Below are positions 1,607 to 26,759 of a DNA stretch of 28,718 nt, piece after piece. The stretch's first letter is position 1, and each line of letters begins with the position of its first letter. The position numbers were made by a program, and so were the translations under genes. The stretch comes from a virus, in the IMG/VR virus record IMGVR_UViG_3300046522_000726, positions 1 to 28,718 of that record; one strand, 5' to 3'. The notes under the pieces are model-generated. The model was not told where the DNA came from, searched no databases, and was given only the letters and a program-made list of their open reading frames with translations.

Positions 1607-1624
1607 TGACTTAGGTCTAAGTCA
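1607..1624. repeat. 8-bp inverted repeat at the 3' end of the tail fibre gene
   Basis: TGACTTAG-GT-CTAAGTCA is a perfect palindrome with a 2-base centre. It includes the fibre stop codon. No U-run follows on the minus strand, so it is not a clear intrinsic terminator. The rest of the 1501-1621 interval holds no gene I can support. Confidence 0.45.
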
Positions 1625-4570
1625 CACATTTGCTGCGATAAAGTCGGCTATTATATTGCCGAAGATATCGCCGTTCCCGGTGAGTGCGCCGCTACCCGAG
1701 AAGTGGGTGCCGTCGCTCTTATAGAAGCCGATATTGGCCCACTTCAGGCGGGGGCCAAGGACGTCCGGCATCGCATTAATCGTCACGCCGTAGGCATAGG
1801 CCGCCTTGTAGAGCAACCAAGTGTACCGATCTTGCGAAGCTTGGGAAAGCACCGAGGGTTGTGTCGGCGGATCGCCCGAAACCATCACGTCCCCAAACGC
1901 GAGCGCTTGGGACAGGGCATATTGCACTGATGAGATGTAGAGCGCCTCATCGGTGACCGCGCTCGCATCGTTGGTGACGGCTTCATAGTGCGTAAAGCAG
2001 AGGCCGAGAGTGCCGAGCATACGGACCCAGGCCTGCACGCTATTTTCCGCTGCTCCGGAGTTAGAGGCGTCAAGGGCTAACGTGACCGCCGTCCGCAGCG
2101 TCGTACCGCCGTTGATGCACAGCACCGCCCGCACCAGAGTGTCGCGCTCGAGGCCGCCGCCGATCGTCTTTGGTAGGCTGTCGGTGCTGGTATAGGTAAA
2201 GGTGTTGACGCCGCGTACGACGCCGTCAGCCGGACCTAGCGTTGTGACGCGCGGCCCGATCGATTTGATGGTCGTGCTTGCAATCGTCTGCGAGACGCTG
2301 ACTTGGTACGTCCCGGTGCCGTTCGCCGCCCCGGTGAGTTGCTTGACGATCGTCGTTCCGGCGGTAGGCCCATTTGTCAGCGCGTCGCCTACCTGCGGGT
2401 AGCCTGTGCCCAAGGCCGTTACAGTCATCGTCGTGCCACTAATCGAGGCCGTATAGGCGGTCTCGCCTGCTGCCGTCTTAGCGTGCCCGTTGCCGTCCGA
2501 AAACTGCCATCCGCCGTAGCCCGGGAAGGTCCAGTAGAAGAAATTGTAGGTGTCGCTGATGCCGGGGACGACGTCTGTGATTGTCGCACCGTTGGTTGAT
2601 GTCTTCATCGACGCGCCGCCGAGCTGCGTTCCATAACCGGACCAGCCAGCCGAAAAGGTAAGACGTTCTGGACGGTAGGGGCTGGCGCCAGCGCTTGGCG
2701 CCGAGTTGTTGTTTCCGAACCAGCCGACGTACCGCGCGGGAATGCCATATTTTGACCAAAGGCGGGCGGCGACTTTAGCCGGCATGCTGTTCGCCGACGG
2801 ACCCGTGCTCGGCTCAACGCCCGCCGAATGACTTGTACCCTCGAACAGGGCGATGGCGTCAGCCGTATTGGCGCGCACTGCGGCCACGCCCGTCTTCATG
2901 TTCGGCAGGGCATTGCCGGGAATCTGCTGACGGAAGAGCTTGGCCCCCGAGTTTGCAAATGTCGGGATCGCAGTTGCCGTGTACTGGTCAAACAACGAGC
3001 GATCATCAACGCGGTCGAATGCCGAGCGCCATTTGATGCGCTTGATCCAGCCGCCAAGTACTTGCTGTCCAGAGCCGTCACCTTTCCCGCCGATAGCGGC
3101 GCTCGTTACTGAGGTGCCGTTGTTGAAAGCGGTGCTGTCGATGACCGGCATGCCGTCACCCGCGCCAAAGGTCGAACTCGAACTGCCCCAAGCAAATCCG
3201 AGTTTCTGATTCGCTCCCGCGCCGGTATTCCAGGCCTGATTGCCAAGCGGCGCGTTCACAGCCGCACCACGATAGCCAAAGCCGCTTGCACCGTTGACGA
3301 GAGCCCACGTCGCGCCGGTGAGCGCGACAATGCCGGGGGTTCGTGCGTAGCCGGTTTGTGCCTCGACACGCGAGATCTCGGCCAGGAATGAACCGGAAGG
3401 AGCCTTAAACGCGTTCAACAGGCCGCTCGCGGTAATAGCCTCATCCCAGTCACGCGTGACGGGGGCACCTGCGGTGACGATCAGCGGTGTAGCAATCGAG
3501 TTGTTCGTAAACGAGACGTTGGGGTTATATTCGACCTGGCAGACGTACCAAGTACCAGTACCCGCGTGCGTCACGCTGATATTGCCGGGAGTCGTGATCG
3601 TCAGAACCTGCGGCACGCCCGATGTAACCGGCCCAAACCCACTGCCGACTGCGCTACTGGCGGCCGAGGTGACCGTCACACCCGCGTCGTGGTGGCTCCA
3701 GATGATGATTTTGCCGGCCGGCACCGCGATAGCGAGCTGATCTACCGGCGTCAGGCAGTTGAGGAAAACGTTTCGTGACTGCGGCATGAATGCCGTTCCA
3801 AGGTCGGTTCTGCGGATCGGCTGACCCGCCGAAAAGGTCTGATACAGTGAACCCGGCGCATCGTGATAGCAGAGGTTTGTAGCTAGGGCGGAGCTCGGGT
3901 TCGCGCGCGTGATCGGCAGCAATGCCGTCGGATAGGTCGCCCCAAGGCTGAGGTCGTAATGCGACCAGCCGGCGTTTACATCCGCAGTTGCGCCGAGCGG
4001 CCAAGTGCTGTTCGTCTTTTGCCCATAGACAAGCCCGGTCGAGAGATCGGTATAGTCGTCCCCGTTCGCGCCAAAATTGTTCGCGGGCAGTCCGTAGCCG
4101 GTCAGGTGGGTGCCGGTCGTGCCGTTGGTACCGTTTGTGCCGGTCAGCACCTGCCCAGGAGGCCAAACGCCACCTGCCCTGGGACCGTAGAACGTAATGA
4201 CGTCGCCGGTGTTTCGATAGTAGATCTGCCCATCAACGCCCTCGGTCGTGGGCGCTGCGAACCCGAACAGCGGCCGCATCCCCGCAATCTGCACATCCAA
4301 TTGCGCCAGATCATACAGTTGCAGATCATGCACCTTGGGCGCCAGATACGACCCGTCCGCCGACGCGATCTGGACGTCATAAGCTCCATTGGCCGCCGCG
4401 AACCCGACCAGCCCGGAAGTTGCCGCGGTGATAGGGTTGGACAAACCGGCGCCCGAGCTGTCGTAGATCGAAGCCAGCGTGGTCGTGCCCGCCAAATAGA
4501 CAGTGATCTTGGCAAGCGGCAGTGCTGCCCCCGTGTCGCCACGGGCGGCGATGAATTCATAATATTGCAT
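1622..4570 (-). CDS. tail fibre / receptor-binding protein with SGNH-hydrolase-like domain
   Basis: 982 residues. The N-terminus (about 1-100) resembles attachment domains of phage tail fibres. A short Gly-X-Y stretch (GTNGTNGTTGT, about 143-153) leads into a fibre-type motif near 165-195. The C-terminal third looks like a GDSL/SGNH esterase: IALFEGTSHSAG near residue 573 offers the nucleophile Ser580, and KSDGTHFSG near 951 supplies the Asp953/His956 pair typical of block V. An Ala/Gly/Thr-rich repeat found in many phage tail proteins (about 704-768) is embedded between these blocks. Likely function is binding to, and possible deacetylation of, the host surface polysaccharide (inference). 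AAGG lies about 9 bases upstream of the ATG. It follows the tail hub gene directly. Confidence 0.82.
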   Translation of the reverse strand: MQYYEFIAARGDTGAALPLAKITVYLAGTTTLASIYDSSGAGLSNPITAATSGLVGFAAANGAYDVQIASADGSYLAPKVHDLQLYDLAQLDVQIAGMRPLFGFAAPTTEGVDGQIYYRNTGDVITFYGPRAGGVWPPGQVLTGTNGTNGTTGTHLTGYGLPANNFGANGDDYTDLSTGLVYGQKTNSTWPLGATADVNAGWSHYDLSLGATYPTALLPITRANPSSALATNLCYHDAPGSLYQTFSAGQPIRRTDLGTAFMPQSRNVFLNCLTPVDQLAIAVPAGKIIIWSHHDAGVTVTSAASSAVGSGFGPVTSGVPQVLTITTPGNISVTHAGTGTWYVCQVEYNPNVSFTNNSIATPLIVTAGAPVTRDWDEAITASGLLNAFKAPSGSFLAEISRVEAQTGYARTPGIVALTGATWALVNGASGFGYRGAAVNAPLGNQAWNTGAGANQKLGFAWGSSSSTFGAGDGMPVIDSTAFNNGTSVTSAAIGGKGDGSGQQVLGGWIKRIKWRSAFDRVDDRSLFDQYTATAIPTFANSGAKLFRQQIPGNALPNMKTGVAAVRANTADAIALFEGTSHSAGVEPSTGPSANSMPAKVAARLWSKYGIPARYVGWFGNNNSAPSAGASPYRPERLTFSAGWSGYGTQLGGASMKTSTNGATITDVVPGISDTYNFFYWTFPGYGGWQFSDGNGHAKTAAGETAYTASISGTTMTVTALGTGYPQVGDALTNGPTAGTTIVKQLTGAANGTGTYQVSVSQTIASTTIKSIGPRVTTLGPADGVVRGVNTFTYTSTDSLPKTIGGGLERDTLVRAVLCINGGTTLRTAVTLALDASNSGAAENSVQAWVRMLGTLGLCFTHYEAVTNDASAVTDEALYISSVQYALSQALAFGDVMVSGDPPTQPSVLSQASQDRYTWLLYKAAYAYGVTINAMPDVLGPRLKWANIGFYKSDGTHFSGSGALTGNGDIFGNIIADFIAANV

Positions 4571-4606: not shown

Positions 4607-7543
4607 CTACAGCGTCGGCTGTACTTTGTAATTGTGCGACAGCACGCCGTCGGACACGTAGGTATGGGCGTCGCCCACGGTGATCTTGGCGACGCGCGCC
4701 TCGCCGGCGGCGACACCGATCTCTTCCATCATCACCCAGCGGTCGAGCCAGAACCGGTGACGTGGCGTTGCTTTGGGATAACCCTCGGCGGCGAACACCG
4801 GATCGAGCGAGAACGAGATCGCGGTCACCGGATAAGCGCCCCATGCCCGCGTGATTTCGTGTTGCGTCCAGACCCAGTCGCCCACCTCGACCATCGATGC
4901 GGGCTTCTCGGTTCCCGGCCCGGAGCGCTCGGCGTCAGCCATCAGGATCAGCGCCGAGTCGATGACGCAGCGGCCGTTATAGCCGCCCCCGCCATCGCCG
5001 CCGCCGCCCGGCGAACTGCCGCCGCCGGTGGAGATCGTGAACGTCTGCTCGGCCGACAAATTGAGGAAAGCGGGGTCCGCCGTCCAGCCATCATAGGCGG
5101 CGATGCGGCCATAATAGGTACCGGCCGCCAGCCCATAGACCGTGATCGACGGAATGCCCGCAGAGAGCACCCCGCCTGAAGTGGAGGGATTGAAGCCGCT
5201 GGTCGACGAATAGAACATGACATAGCCGGCGAGATCCGGGTCGGTCGAGGCGGCGCAGGTCATCGTGCCGTTGGTCGTGCCGCCGATCGCCGCCGGCGAC
5301 GACACTGCTGGAGGAGCGTTGTTGGTGACGACAAGCCAGGGCGATGGCGGCGCGTCACCCGCCGCGTTCGAGGCGATGACCTCGACATGATAGACCCGGC
5401 TCACGCCATCCTGCGCCGCAAGCGCGGACGTATAGGTGGCCGCCGGGGTGGAGGTCACGATCTCGCGCTTGAGCGTGGTCCGGTCGGCCAGATAGAACCG
5501 GAATTTATAGGTGACGGCACGCGCAGACGGATCGCACACGACCGAAAGCGAACTGCCGTCCCAGGCATGGGCAAGCGCGAGGCCGGTCACGGGATCGGGA
5601 AGCGCCGTCGAGGGCGCGAGCGACACCGTGTAAGGCGATAGCGCCGACAAGTCCTCGATCTCCTGGCCGAAGATGTTGAACGACGGGAATTTGACGTAGA
5701 TCGTGGAGCCGACGTTGAGGCTGGCATAGCTGAACTTGAACACGCCATCGTCGAGCCGGATGAAGCGCTGGCCGACGGCATGGCTTGCCGGCAATGTCCC
5801 AGCGAATCCGCGGCGCAAGTTGGTCAGGCTATAGGTACCCGCCCCGGTCAGTGTTGCGGTCTGATAGGTGACCAATTCGTCCCCGATCATGCATAGCGAA
5901 CCACCGGCATTGGCCTCGGCGGCCGTCGCTGAACCGAGCTCGCCACGTGACGCGGTGAGATCGATTGCCAGTATGTTGGTCGTGTCCGGATCGGCATGGT
6001 TGGCCAGGGCCGCCGTCAGCACGCCGTAACGTGCCGGGCCGTTGATCGTGCCGGCGCGCGAATAGGTGACGTTGTCGGCACTGATCCATATTTCACAGCC
6101 GCCCCAGGTCGGCGACGATGAGGCGACCGCGCACCATATTTCGGGATCGCCATTGGTGAGCGAGGTTGGCGCATTGATCAGGGCGGGCGTCGAAACCGAA
6201 CCCGGAGCGTCCGCCGCATTGGGCTGCCGATCGGGTCCGCTCGAATGCGAGGCATAGAGCGCGGCCGACGCAGTCCCGACCGGCACACCCTCTCCGGTGA
6301 TCGACAGGAGTCCGTCGGCGTCTTCTGCGATTTCGGTGATCCGTACCAGCACGCGGTCGAGCGACAGCGAATCGCTGGTCGTCGTCAGCGTGACGAGATC
6401 GGTCGGCTCGAGCAGCGCGAAGTTCCACGGCAGCTTGAAGCTGTATTTCTCCCGCGTGTAGAGCACGCGCTGGCCGTAAAGCTGGACCGCTTTGCGCGCG
6501 ATCGCGGCGTCGCAGATGCAATGGACCGTCGTCGGGTCTTGCTTGCGCCGGCCATAGGTGACGATGTTGTCGAGATCCTGGGCGGTCGCGATGCCGACAT
6601 TATATTGCTGGCTGCGATCCAGGAATTCGAACTGGACGATGTTATAGGCATCGGACTGATCGACGATTTCGATGGAGGCGGCATTGCCGCTGTCGTCGAC
6701 CACCAGATCGTCCTCGGTCAGGTCGTATACCGGGGCCATGTTCGGCGTCCATGTCACCGAATTGCCCGTCGCCGCGGCATCGCCATAGGGCCGGATCTTG
6801 AGCATCCCCTCCGACCAATAGGCCGCCGCATTGGTCGCGGTCAGCCATTCCTCCAGGATCGACGCCGCGCTCGACTGCGATTCGAGCACTGGCGAGAGCA
6901 ACAGGTTGTTGGCGCGGCAATAGAGCGAATAGTCGGATAGATCCCCGATCAGGCCCGATCCCCACATCGGCACGCCATAATCGGCGTTGGTCAGGAAATC
7001 GGTGATGATGTCCTTGGGATCGGCATCGCATACGCCGCCGCCGAGCTGGGTCGCAAAGTCGACCTCGAAGCTGTGGTTCGACAGCGTCGCCGAGTCCGCG
7101 AGGTCGTAATCCTGGGCATAGACATAGGCGATGCCGGAATAGTTGATCGCCTGAGCGGGGAATTTGGACGTCAGATAGCCCCACACAGATTGGGTCGGCG
7201 CGCCGGTCGCGAGGCTCAGCCCGGCGGCCGATAGCGTCGTCAACACGGCAGTGTCCTTATAGATCGTGCGGATGCCCCGAATGCCGCTCGCGCCGCCTTC
7301 GCAAATGCCCATGATGATCGACGCGGTATAGGTATAGGTCGTGTTCTTGGAACCGCCGCCCAGCCCCTTGCCCGCGGTGGTCTTGGTGGTGTGCGGGATC
7401 GCCGTGAAGGCGTTGTACCAGATGAGGTTGCACTTCATTCGGCCGCGACCCCAGCCAAGCGAGATGGGCAGGCCCAGGGTAGACGATTGGACCTGCAAGC
7501 CGTTGAGCTTCGGTGATGTGGTCGAGGTAGACTTGCCGCCCAT
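4607..7543 (-). CDS. tail hub / tip protein (Phage-tail_3 family) with C-terminal Hint (intein-like) domain
   Basis: 978-residue central tail-tip protein. The N-terminal half (for example GLPISLGWGRGRMKCNLIWY and GIRGIRTIYKD) and the middle region (VIEL-like beta domain with DDLVVDDSGNAASIEIVDQ) match the hub family that follows NlpC/P60 in GTA-like and lambda-J-like tails. FN3-like beta repeats follow (about 600-840). After a Gly-rich linker, residues 859-978 form a Hint domain: Cys859 at the start, TPRHRFWLDR as the TxxH block, and VSDGVLSHNY with the terminal His-Asn seven residues from the end. Two ATGs are adjacent (7546 and 7543); GAGGA is 6 bases before the second, which I used. Overlaps the stop of the NlpC/P60 gene. 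Confidence 0.85.
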   Translation of the reverse strand: MGGKSTSTTSPKLNGLQVQSSTLGLPISLGWGRGRMKCNLIWYNAFTAIPHTTKTTAGKGLGGGSKNTTYTYTASIIMGICEGGASGIRGIRTIYKDTAVLTTLSAAGLSLATGAPTQSVWGYLTSKFPAQAINYSGIAYVYAQDYDLADSATLSNHSFEVDFATQLGGGVCDADPKDIITDFLTNADYGVPMWGSGLIGDLSDYSLYCRANNLLLSPVLESQSSAASILEEWLTATNAAAYWSEGMLKIRPYGDAAATGNSVTWTPNMAPVYDLTEDDLVVDDSGNAASIEIVDQSDAYNIVQFEFLDRSQQYNVGIATAQDLDNIVTYGRRKQDPTTVHCICDAAIARKAVQLYGQRVLYTREKYSFKLPWNFALLEPTDLVTLTTTSDSLSLDRVLVRITEIAEDADGLLSITGEGVPVGTASAALYASHSSGPDRQPNAADAPGSVSTPALINAPTSLTNGDPEIWCAVASSSPTWGGCEIWISADNVTYSRAGTINGPARYGVLTAALANHADPDTTNILAIDLTASRGELGSATAAEANAGGSLCMIGDELVTYQTATLTGAGTYSLTNLRRGFAGTLPASHAVGQRFIRLDDGVFKFSYASLNVGSTIYVKFPSFNIFGQEIEDLSALSPYTVSLAPSTALPDPVTGLALAHAWDGSSLSVVCDPSARAVTYKFRFYLADRTTLKREIVTSTPAATYTSALAAQDGVSRVYHVEVIASNAAGDAPPSPWLVVTNNAPPAVSSPAAIGGTTNGTMTCAASTDPDLAGYVMFYSSTSGFNPSTSGGVLSAGIPSITVYGLAAGTYYGRIAAYDGWTADPAFLNLSAEQTFTISTGGGSSPGGGGDGGGGYNGRCVIDSALILMADAERSGPGTEKPASMVEVGDWVWTQHEITRAWGAYPVTAISFSLDPVFAAEGYPKATPRHRFWLDRWVMMEEIGVAAGEARVAKITVGDAHTYVSDGVLSHNYKVQPTL

Positions 7544-7971
7544 CATTGATCCTCGAACAAGGTGAAGAACTTGACCGGCCGGGAGCGCAGCTCCTCGTCG
7601 CGATCGGCGTTTCCGCGCACGACGCCGCCGCCGCGGATGACGGCGTGCAGCACTTCGGGCATGTCGATGACGATCGCCGCGTGCGAATAGCAGCGGCCGT
7701 ACTTCCAGATCGCGAGATCGCCGGGGCCGACCGCCCCGCGCGCGATCTCGCGTGCAAACCGCGTGACCCAGCCCAGGAACTGCTCCTCGTCGCGATGCAG
7801 CATCCATTGCGGCGAGTAATCGGGCTCGACCCGTGGGATCAGGCCGACCGCTTCATAGACCATCGCCGGCAGCATCGCGCAGTCGACCCCGACGCCGCGC
7901 AACCGCGCCCGGTGATGGTATGGCGTTCCCTCCCAGCCGAGAGCCTCGCGCACCACGTCCTGGCGCGTCAT
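7543..7971 (-). CDS. NlpC/P60-family peptidase of the tail tip
   Basis: 142-residue cysteine peptidase. GVGVDCAMLPAMVYEAVGL places the catalytic Cys31 after Asp30, CYSHAAIVID gives the catalytic His97, and GPGDLAIWKYG is the conserved strand between them. Such proteins are mounted on GTA and siphovirus tail tips and cleave peptidoglycan peptides during DNA entry (family knowledge). The ATG at 7971 overlaps the stop of the DUF2163 gene by the ATGA pattern, and its own stop overlaps the hub start. An upstream extension of 32 codons is open but lies inside DUF2163 and is not needed for the fold. Confidence 0.88.
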   Translation of the reverse strand: MTRQDVVREALGWEGTPYHHRARLRGVGVDCAMLPAMVYEAVGLIPRVEPDYSPQWMLHRDEEQFLGWVTRFAREIARGAVGPGDLAIWKYGRCYSHAAIVIDMPEVLHAVIRGGGVVRGNADRDEELRSRPVKFFTLFEDQ

Positions 7972-25031: not shown

Positions 25032-26549
25032 CTAGGCCATCACCGCCGGCCCGAACCAAGTTGCAAGCGCCTGGTGCAAGCCGCCGTCATTGCCATCTCC
25101 TACCCAGGCGACATGGCCGTCGGGCCGGACCAGCACCGCGCTCGGGGCGGGAACCGTACCGATCACCGGCAGCTCCCAGACCCCTTGATAACGGGCATCC
25201 AGCAACGTCACCCGGTCTGCCCAGGGCGATATGTCTATCGCGCCCGGCTCATCCAGATTGATCAGCACCGGTCGTGCATCGTGCAGCAATGCGAACACCC
25301 GCACCGGGCCGTCGGCGGTAATCAGGTCGAGATCGGGCATCCGCCGCCCGAGCAGCGCGTGCCCTTCGCCAAGATCGTAATGCACGTCCAACCCCGACAT
25401 CATTCCCGCGACGCGTCGGCGCGGTTCGTCCATGCCCAGCAGTTCGGCGACGATCTCGCGAAGCGCGCCGGAGCGCTCGTCGGCGCGCCGAAGGGCGACT
25501 TGCGCCATCGTGCTGCGCAGCACGCGCCCGGCGGCCGGATGACGCTCGGCATGGTAGCTGTCGAGCAGGCGGTCGGGTGCCGTCCCCGCGGCAACTCGCG
25601 CCAGCTTCCAGCCCAGGTTCACCGCATCGTGCAGGCCGATGTTGAGGCCTTGGCCACCATCGGGCGAATGAACATGCGCGGCATCGCCTGCCAGCAATAT
25701 CCGGCCTTTGCGATATGTCGCCGCCTGCCGCGTCGTGTCGCTGAAGCGCGAGATCCAGCTTGGATGGTGCACTCCGTAATCGGTGCCATAAACCGCGATC
25801 AGCCCTTCGCTCAGGTCGCTAAGCCCTGGATCGCCGGCACGTCCGGCCCGCTGCTCGGTGATCATGACGCGCACCGTCTTGCCGTCCTCCATCCGGCTCA
25901 GCCCATGCAGTCCGATCGCGTCGCGGCGAATGCCCCATTCTGGTTCCTCTTCCAGCTCGACCTCGGCGATCAGGTTGCTGATCGTGGGGTCCCAACCGGG
26001 AAAGTCGATCCCCGCCATCTTGCGGATCAGGCTGCGGCCGCCGTCGCACCCGACCAGATAGCGGGTCCGCAACGAACTCCCGTCGGACAGCGCGACGTCG
26101 ATGCCGGCCTCATCCTCGACGAACCCGATCACGTCACGCGCGCGATAGCTTGGTACCCCCAGCTCCTCGACCCATTCGGCCAGGATGCGTTCGATATGGT
26201 TCTGCCACAAAGCGAGCCCGTAATTGTGCCGGGTGGGGAAGTCGCTGATATCGAGCCTAGTGAGCGCGAAGCCCGTGACCTGCATCGTTTCCCCGGCGGC
26301 CAGGAAGCGGTCGGCGATGCCGCGTTGATCGAGCAACTCGATCGATCGAGCATGCAATCCGCCCGCTCGCGATCCCGCGAGTTGTTGATCGGCTCGCCGC
26401 TCGACGATCGCGACATCGGCGCCCGCCAGCGCCAGTTCGCCGGCCAGCATCAGTCCCGTCGGCCCGCCGCCGCAAATCACGATCGCGTGATCGGTCGCCT
26501 TCGTACTGGCGTCCTCGTGCAAGTCATAAGTAGATGATACCGCCCGCAT
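25032..26549 (-). CDS. FAD-dependent aromatic monooxygenase (PheA/TfdB family), cargo gene
   Basis: 505-residue flavoprotein hydroxylase, full length for the family. FAD Rossmann motif GGGPTGLMLAGELALAGADV (from residue 27), DG motif YLVGCDGGRSLIRK (D169/G170), GD motif RILLAGDAAHVHSPDGGQGL (D289), and a thioredoxin-like C-terminal domain with VRPDGHVAWVG. Members hydroxylate phenols, polyketides or rifamycins with NAD(P)H and O2. The overall layout is close to rifampicin-monooxygenase-like enzymes, but the substrate cannot be read from sequence. The ATG at 26549 has AGGGAG 7 bases upstream. It is not a phage function. It lies between a phage HTH gene and the small terminase and has its own 3' hairpin, so it looks like acquired cargo. 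Confidence 0.85.
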   Translation of the reverse strand: MRAVSSTYDLHEDASTKATDHAIVICGGGPTGLMLAGELALAGADVAIVERRADQQLAGSRAGGLHARSIELLDQRGIADRFLAAGETMQVTGFALTRLDISDFPTRHNYGLALWQNHIERILAEWVEELGVPSYRARDVIGFVEDEAGIDVALSDGSSLRTRYLVGCDGGRSLIRKMAGIDFPGWDPTISNLIAEVELEEEPEWGIRRDAIGLHGLSRMEDGKTVRVMITEQRAGRAGDPGLSDLSEGLIAVYGTDYGVHHPSWISRFSDTTRQAATYRKGRILLAGDAAHVHSPDGGQGLNIGLHDAVNLGWKLARVAAGTAPDRLLDSYHAERHPAAGRVLRSTMAQVALRRADERSGALREIVAELLGMDEPRRRVAGMMSGLDVHYDLGEGHALLGRRMPDLDLITADGPVRVFALLHDARPVLINLDEPGAIDISPWADRVTLLDARYQGVWELPVIGTVPAPSAVLVRPDGHVAWVGDGNDGGLHQALATWFGPAVMA

Positions 26550-26759
26550 ATCGCGTCTCCCTGCGAATCGATGGGGCAGGGGCTTTACGGCAAGTGGCGG
26601 GTCTTGAAGCAAGGCCCTTGTGAACTATATCTCGAAAGTGCGGGGGAGATATGTCCGCCGCGCACTCCCGAAATATCACCGCCAATCCGCCGATCCCGCG
26701 AAGGGCGTTAGTGCGGCGACGATCGCCGGCAACAGGTCATGGGCTTTGATGCCTACTCA
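26550..26759. other. interval between monooxygenase and HTH protein
   Basis: No convincing gene. A plus-strand ATG at 26651 with GGGGGAGAT in front opens a 32-codon frame (MSAAHSRNITANPP...), which may be a remnant or a chance frame. No clear promoter for the monooxygenase was found. Confidence 0.3.

Follow-up and report, generated by a model that had tools for sequence, protein, structure and literature searches.

A putative self-processing Hint domain with a conserved lysine just beyond its predicted cleavage site at the C-terminus of a phage tail hub protein

Domain organization and genomic context

The window, a 28,718-nucleotide stretch of viral DNA (IMG/VR record IMGVR_UViG_3300046522_000726), derives from a Sphingomonas-type phage, and all of the features described here lie on its minus strand. 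The open reading frame at 4607–7546 encodes 979 amino acids from its first ATG and corresponds to a tail hub protein of the GTA megatron or Rcc01698 kind, with matches to the Pfam families Phage-tail_3 (E = 1.1 × 10−31) and Rcc01698_C (E = 1.3 × 10−19), to the tail family PHROG 1101 (E = 3 × 10−110) and, under the family cut-off, to the NCBIfam model GTA_megatron (E = 7 × 10−48). Towards the C-terminus, AlphaFold2 and Foldseek place two FN3-like β-sandwich domains at approximately 5027–5599, FN3 tandems being the top Foldseek matches of the AlphaFold2 model of the hub C-terminus (E of about 10−9). They are followed in the translation by a glycine-rich linker, GGGSSPGGGGDGGGGYNGR (4970–5026), which is predicted to be disordered in the same model (pLDDT below 50 over model residues 211–223) and runs up to the predicted N-terminal scissile bond, Arg859-Cys860.

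The last 120 residues of the hub (Cys860–Leu979) comprise a Hint domain, Cys860–Asn972, and a seven-residue tail, which together with the stop codon occupy 4607–4969; these limits are based on alignments, the AlphaFold2 models and matches in the PDB. The original prediction had read a Hint domain at exactly these coordinates, and both the position and the reading are correct; its numbering, which counted 978 residues from the second ATG, is lower by one, so that its Cys859 is Cys860 here. The glycine-rich linker, the TPRH motif and the terminal His-Asn seven residues before the stop that it described are likewise seen in the translation, which reads LSHN followed by YKVQPTL. All of the Hint blocks are present: Cys1, a block A GD, the block B TPRH, a block F AHTYV and the block G LSHN. 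Cys860 (4967–4969), which is invariant in a 12-sequence alignment and superimposes on residue 1 of inteins, would be Cys1, the nucleophile of the N–S acyl shift. The block B motif spans Thr927–His930 (4757–4768), and the penultimate histidine and the putative cyclizing asparagine are His971 and Asn972 (4631–4636); across 46 sequences the asparagine is invariant and both histidines are at least 90% conserved. The predicted C-terminal scissile bond is Asn972-Tyr973, and the tail YKVQPTL beyond it (4610–4630), which is disordered in both AlphaFold2 models (the Hint and the hub C-terminus), carries the conserved lysine discussed below, Lys974, at position +2 (codon 4625–4627).

The gene downstream of the hub (1622–4570) encodes a tail-fibre-like protein of 982 residues that has no Pfam match and whose presence does not track with that of the Hint domain. 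By eye, it contains an SGNH-hydrolase-like stretch (EGTSHSAG), and its relatives consist of a 707–708-residue protein and a separate 315-residue gene. Further downstream of the tail genes lies an endolysin-like glycosyl hydrolase 108 gene (1–702). At 25032–26612, adjoining the packaging genes, is a gene for an FAD-dependent aromatic-ring hydroxylase (FAD_binding_3 and Rng_hyd_C), which would be either an unusual piece of cargo or part of the host genome at the prophage edge.

Identification of the Hint fold

As a single sequence, the window Hint scored over the cut-off of no Pfam, PHROG or NCBIfam family, its closest approach being 15.4 bits against a cut-off of 15.6 for the intein C-terminal model TIGR01443 (intein_Cterm). 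A search with PF07591 across the record gave no match, and the sole hit of a single-sequence phmmer search of the PDB was to an unrelated protein (E = 1.5). Since the single-sequence scans stayed under their cut-offs, profiles, alignments and structure prediction were required. A profile built from 12 family sequences retrieves the Ssp DnaB intein from the PDB (E = 5 × 10−4), and the relatives themselves match PT-HINT and Intein_splicing in Pfam and intein_Cterm in NCBIfam. The profile search proposed earlier as a check stays under the cut-off for the lone window sequence and gives Hint matches among its relatives.

Structure prediction, also proposed as a check, bore out the assignment. The AlphaFold2 model of the Hint domain, calculated from 46 sequences, has a pLDDT of 92, and its top Foldseek match is BIL2 of the Tetrahymena BUBL1 locus. 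Eighty PDB chains reach a Z-score of 8 or more, with inteins, bacterial intein-like (BIL) domains and Hedgehog proteins on top and the closest structures, mini-inteins and BIL domains, at Z-scores of about 14–16. In the superposition, Cys860 and Asn972 coincide with the residues that begin and end an intein, respectively. Model and alignments together identify the hub end as a real Hint domain with a complete predicted catalytic set: as originally proposed, all of the catalytic positions are present, and Cys1, the block B histidine and the terminal His-Asn are aligned and conserved in the relatives.

Relatives and conservation

A scan of viral contigs yielded 13 relatives, to which one further record was added from a phage collection; wider scans produced 61 viral loci and four genome loci. 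Among 12 sequences with identities down to about 41%, Cys1, the block A GD, the block B histidine and LSHN are invariant, as are structural positions beyond the catalytic residues, and blocks B and G remain conserved across 46 sequences. The dN/dS ratio of the Hint, comparing the window with its relatives, is 0.12–0.28, close to the value for the remainder of the hub. These values indicate that the domain is under purifying selection, and the motif set in the hub end is, judged from the alignments, beyond chance.

Hint queries of the phage collection, intended to retrieve a cultured phage for which virion data exist, found none with the same architecture; the only match sharing the C-terminal architecture is MT835519, a record from a human faecal metagenome that carries no annotation, the remaining matches being terminase inteins or partial. 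Prophages carrying this hub are present in the genomes of Sphingomonas asaccharolytica NBRC 15499 and S. glacialis CGMCC 1.8957, and because these are named strains the question of processing is directly testable.

The Hint domain is an exchangeable C-terminal module that occurs on several kinds of tail protein. Besides the GTA-type hub, members of the family are found on a λ J-like tip protein (L064), a λ I-like tail assembly protein (L062), a tail protein that is presumably of podovirus type (L038) and DUF4815 proteins that are taken to be of T4 type (L045 and L057). At least four glycines occur within the last 12 residues before the domain in 28 of 30 terminal Hints and in none of the 19 internal Hints, which have a proline-rich flank instead. 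Hubs of about 45% identity, presumably of Burkholderia type, lack the domain and stop at the last FN3-like domain, where the glycine linker would start, with their 'ITFNT' end aligning with 'FTIST' just ahead of the window linker. In hubs that are about 75% identical to that of the window (L140–L160), the last FN3-like domains, the linker and the Hint are all replaced by a glycine-rich C-terminus, which is taken to be adhesin-like. This exchangeability, the recurrence on tail proteins and the lysine tail described below are new relative to the original prediction.

Two further features of the family were noted. A marine phage protein (L048:15-1604) apparently contains two tandem Hints, with the start of the second, N-terminal, being CPTPDMRILL. 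At the ends of three DUF4815-type open reading frames (L055, L057 and L058) the C-extein terminates in SDINLKSNIQPIDNALNRLFSI, which by eye looks like the beginning of a Peptidase_S74 intramolecular chaperone; for L057, no such match was reported by Pfam.

A conserved lysine after the predicted cleavage site

The residues following the terminal asparagine were read in 49 phage Hints, which form 31 clusters at 60% identity. A cysteine, serine or threonine at +1 is present in none of the 49 sequences and in none of the clusters. Instead, 47 sequences have exactly one lysine at +1 (28) or +2 (19), never at both positions simultaneously; the corresponding cluster counts are 16 and 13, with two others. 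The lysine share at positions +3 to +8 is only 0–6%. The residue preceding a +2 lysine is mostly Ile, Ala or Leu, and the window sequence at this site is Asn-Tyr-Lys. The two exceptions have an arginine at +2 (L035) and a lysine at +4 (L041). The earlier view that the domain is BIL-like rather than a splicing intein thus agrees with the tyrosine at +1 and with the lack of a +1 nucleophile in all 31 clusters; the tyrosine, however, although present and BIL-like, does not define the group, whose conserved feature is the lysine at +1 or +2. On the phylogenetic tree the position of the lysine shifts within a supported clade (L034 versus L028 and L029) and, with less support, L045 and L046 (lysine at +2) group with L050 and L055 (lysine at +1). 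The lysine has therefore been retained while its location drifts.

Two trivial origins of this pattern were considered and rejected. The lysine codons could contribute a ribosome-binding site for the downstream gene; however, the lysine is at +1 in each of the 21 Hints that continue into a long C-terminal extension as well, and the 36 bases that separate the hub stop from the next start in the window also count against this reading. The lysine could also be a search artefact, but the patterns used to collect the wider sets stop before block G and the lysine was therefore not selected by the search.

Cellular homologues were drawn from the genomes of Alphaproteobacteria and other Pseudomonadota. 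All 11 whose chain stops no more than ten residues past the asparagine are of the lysine type, some of them ending at HNK or HNKG, whereas all seven with a cysteine at +1 or +2 continue for at least 74 residues (Fisher P = 3 × 10−5 for tail length against type, with some long tails cut by locus ends and hence minimum lengths). It is apparently the Hint, and not a C-extein, that the lysine serves, because the short-ending homologues are all of the lysine type and those of the cysteine type carry long C-terminal domains. Its putative role is deduced from conservation only. By this signature, the hub Hint is assigned to a phage family that has hardly been described and is characterized by a lysine immediately past the predicted cleavage site.

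Among the alphaproteobacterial genomes, cellular Hint proteins that stop right at HNK or HNKG include L095, L097 and L103, among others.

Three loci (L069, L070 and L071) provide a natural experiment. In each, the gene starts at the Hint (from about 6950), so that there is nothing upstream to cut, and continues into a proline-rich stretch; Cys1 and the block B histidine are lost and His-Asn-Lys is retained. These Hints probably perform C-terminal cleavage only, and the pattern fits separately selected roles for N-terminal and C-terminal cleavage. Their sequences speak against the lysine acting solely as an acceptor of the N-terminal thioester: since it is kept where such a thioester could not form, its use may lie in asparagine cyclization or with the fragment set free, and not in aminolysis.

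Proposed processing and alternatives

With moderate confidence, the end of the hub is interpreted as a self-processing Hint belonging to a distinct 'lysine-tailed' phage subfamily near the type A BILs, which a flexible glycine linker connects to the second FN3-like domain. The intein fold and the cutting residues, found in a family marked by a lysine, suggest that the domain probably removes itself, or ties the hub to a lysine peptide, during assembly. Once folded, Cys860 would convert the Arg859-Cys860 bond to a thioester and Asn972 would cyclize, cutting at Tyr973; the thioester would then be hydrolysed or captured by an amine. This amine could be the freed N-terminus of YKVQPTL, which is the published route of type A BILs, or the side chain of Lys974, which would give an isopeptide. 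Either way, the hub would enter the tail without the Hint, ending in its glycine linker with or without the lysine peptide, and, as best suits its position, the domain would probably act during tail assembly, capping or timing the hub end temporarily, and would not be a permanent part of the virion. Self-cleavage is likely, although the conservation of catalytic residues is not in itself proof of activity. By analogy with type A BILs, including that of Magnetospirillum magnetotacticum with its +1 tyrosine, the most likely outcome would be that the Hint is removed and a fraction of the hub is ligated to YKVQPTL.

The conservation of the lysine also invites the tentative alternative that the domain is a ligase in which the lysine at +1 or +2 substitutes for the +1 Cys, Ser or Thr and attacks the Cys1 thioester, forming an isopeptide to the tail of its own hub or, within the ring, to that of an adjacent hub. 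This would explain why a lysine stands at the place of the nucleophile and is chemically possible; the near-constancy of one lysine at +1 or +2 (47/49 sequences and 29/31 clusters) against its rarity at +3 to +8, the fact that it never occupies both places together, its movement on the tree and its association with short tails in cellular homologues (11/11, against seven cysteine-type homologues with long C-terminal domains) are all in keeping with it. In its protonated form, lysine is nevertheless weakly nucleophilic as long as its pKa is not depressed, the published BIL chemistry runs through an α-amine, and the persistence of the lysine in L069–L071 in the absence of Cys1 and an N-extein implies at least one other use. 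Extending this reading to tail-tip self-ligases as a class found throughout phages, with the lysine taking the thioester by aminolysis to give isopeptide-linked C-terminal peptides or hub–hub cross-links, is rather doubtful. A degenerate, inactive intein remnant serving as a structural cap might account for the weak single-sequence profile scores, but is unlikely given that across remote relatives no positions are better conserved than the catalytic residues and that the domain is under purifying selection.

Ligation to a partner outside the hub fits the data less well. Retention of the Hint on the virion as a covalent adhesin, its thioester being taken by a host-surface amine or hydroxyl to anchor the phage, would suit the position of the domain at the distal hub end, where the 75%-identical hubs have their glycine-rich, adhesin-like C-terminus. 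This is quite unlikely, as Hints of this class lie inside marine phage proteins and are present on cellular proteins, the cyclizing asparagine, the histidine and the lysine would be superfluous, and known Hints such as inteins and Hedgehog act upon folding inside the producing cell. Permanent attachment to the host is possible but less likely than a transient role in assembly. Ligation to another particle protein, an outcome raised in the original prediction, would most directly involve the fibre encoded by the adjacent downstream gene, both genes adjoining at the distal tail. However, fibre genes of 707–708 residues with a common N-terminal domain follow both Hint-ended and glycine-rich-ended hubs, and a related fibre gene also follows hubs with neither. 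As the downstream fibre is alike regardless of the hub end, ligation to it is unsupported and very unlikely.

Maturation through intein chemistry is not known for phage tail tips. In the papers retrieved by a literature search of limited coverage, the phage Hint domains are reported as inteins in enzymes such as terminase, and no paper on a tail-hub Hint or a lysine-tailed Hint was retrieved. If the preferred reading of a self-processing domain is true, a fixed-lysine Hint subfamily that occurs repeatedly on distal tail proteins would suggest that tail assembly generally includes a step of self-processing, and would constitute a natural thioester/amine ligation module without the need for a C-extein cysteine.

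Comparison with known systems

With the definitions of type A and type B BILs taken from the literature (PMC4031507), the hub Hint most resembles type A: it has Cys1, the block B histidine and a terminal His-Asn without a +1 nucleophile, and it resides in the variable regions of variable proteins. It is placed with these domains rather than with splicing inteins because it combines the fold and the full catalytic set with the lack of a +1 nucleophile. In the accepted proposal for type A BILs, the freed α-amine attacks the thioester, with cleavage dominating, and the M. magnetotacticum BIL, which has a tyrosine at +1, spliced only after this residue was changed to cysteine (PMC4031507). The Hint model matches a type A BIL from C. 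thermocellum (PDB entry 2lwy) with a Z-score of 13.9. In contrast to this domain and to the M. magnetotacticum BIL, the hub Hint has a fixed lysine at +1 or +2 and a phage tail protein as host, and, unlike type A BILs, its family is C-terminal past a glycine linker with a tail of 4–14 residues in most terminal members. The hub Hint is therefore filed as BIL-like by sequence definition and features, not as a proven type A member, the tree containing no BIL references. Type B BILs lack an intein-like block G, which the hub Hint has (LSHN). BIL2 of the Tetrahymena BUBL1 locus (PDB entries 6y75 and 6tmm) is structurally similar (Z-score of 15.4), but belongs to a eukaryotic BUBL setting, whereas the hub Hint has no ubiquitin-like neighbour.

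Class 1 mini-inteins, such as the Ssp DnaB intein (PDB entries 1mi8 and 6fre) and the terminase inteins of Corynebacterium phages, share the fold and blocks A, B, F and G (Z-scores of 15.4–15.9); the hub Hint differs in having no +1 Cys, Ser or Thr and in being located at the end of a protein rather than inside a conserved enzyme, and it is not inserted in a conserved site with a functional C-extein. Hedgehog (Hog) domains have a sterol recognition region and no cyclizing asparagine, whereas only seven residues follow Asn972 in the hub. A likeness to PT-HINT (PF07591) is apparent in 23 of the 46 family members, which match at E-values up to 0.1; at the gathering score the window Hint has no match and, among the whole proteins of ten relatives, only L047 and L060 pass. 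The cellular cysteine-type homologues carry domains of at least 74 residues, whereas the hub Hint is of the lysine type without a toxin domain. Finally, the Hint-less hubs of the Rcc01698 or GTA megatron type have a common hub core with the window protein (45–75% identity) but end at the last FN3-like domain or in a glycine-rich C-terminus, at the place where the window protein carries its lysine-tailed Hint.
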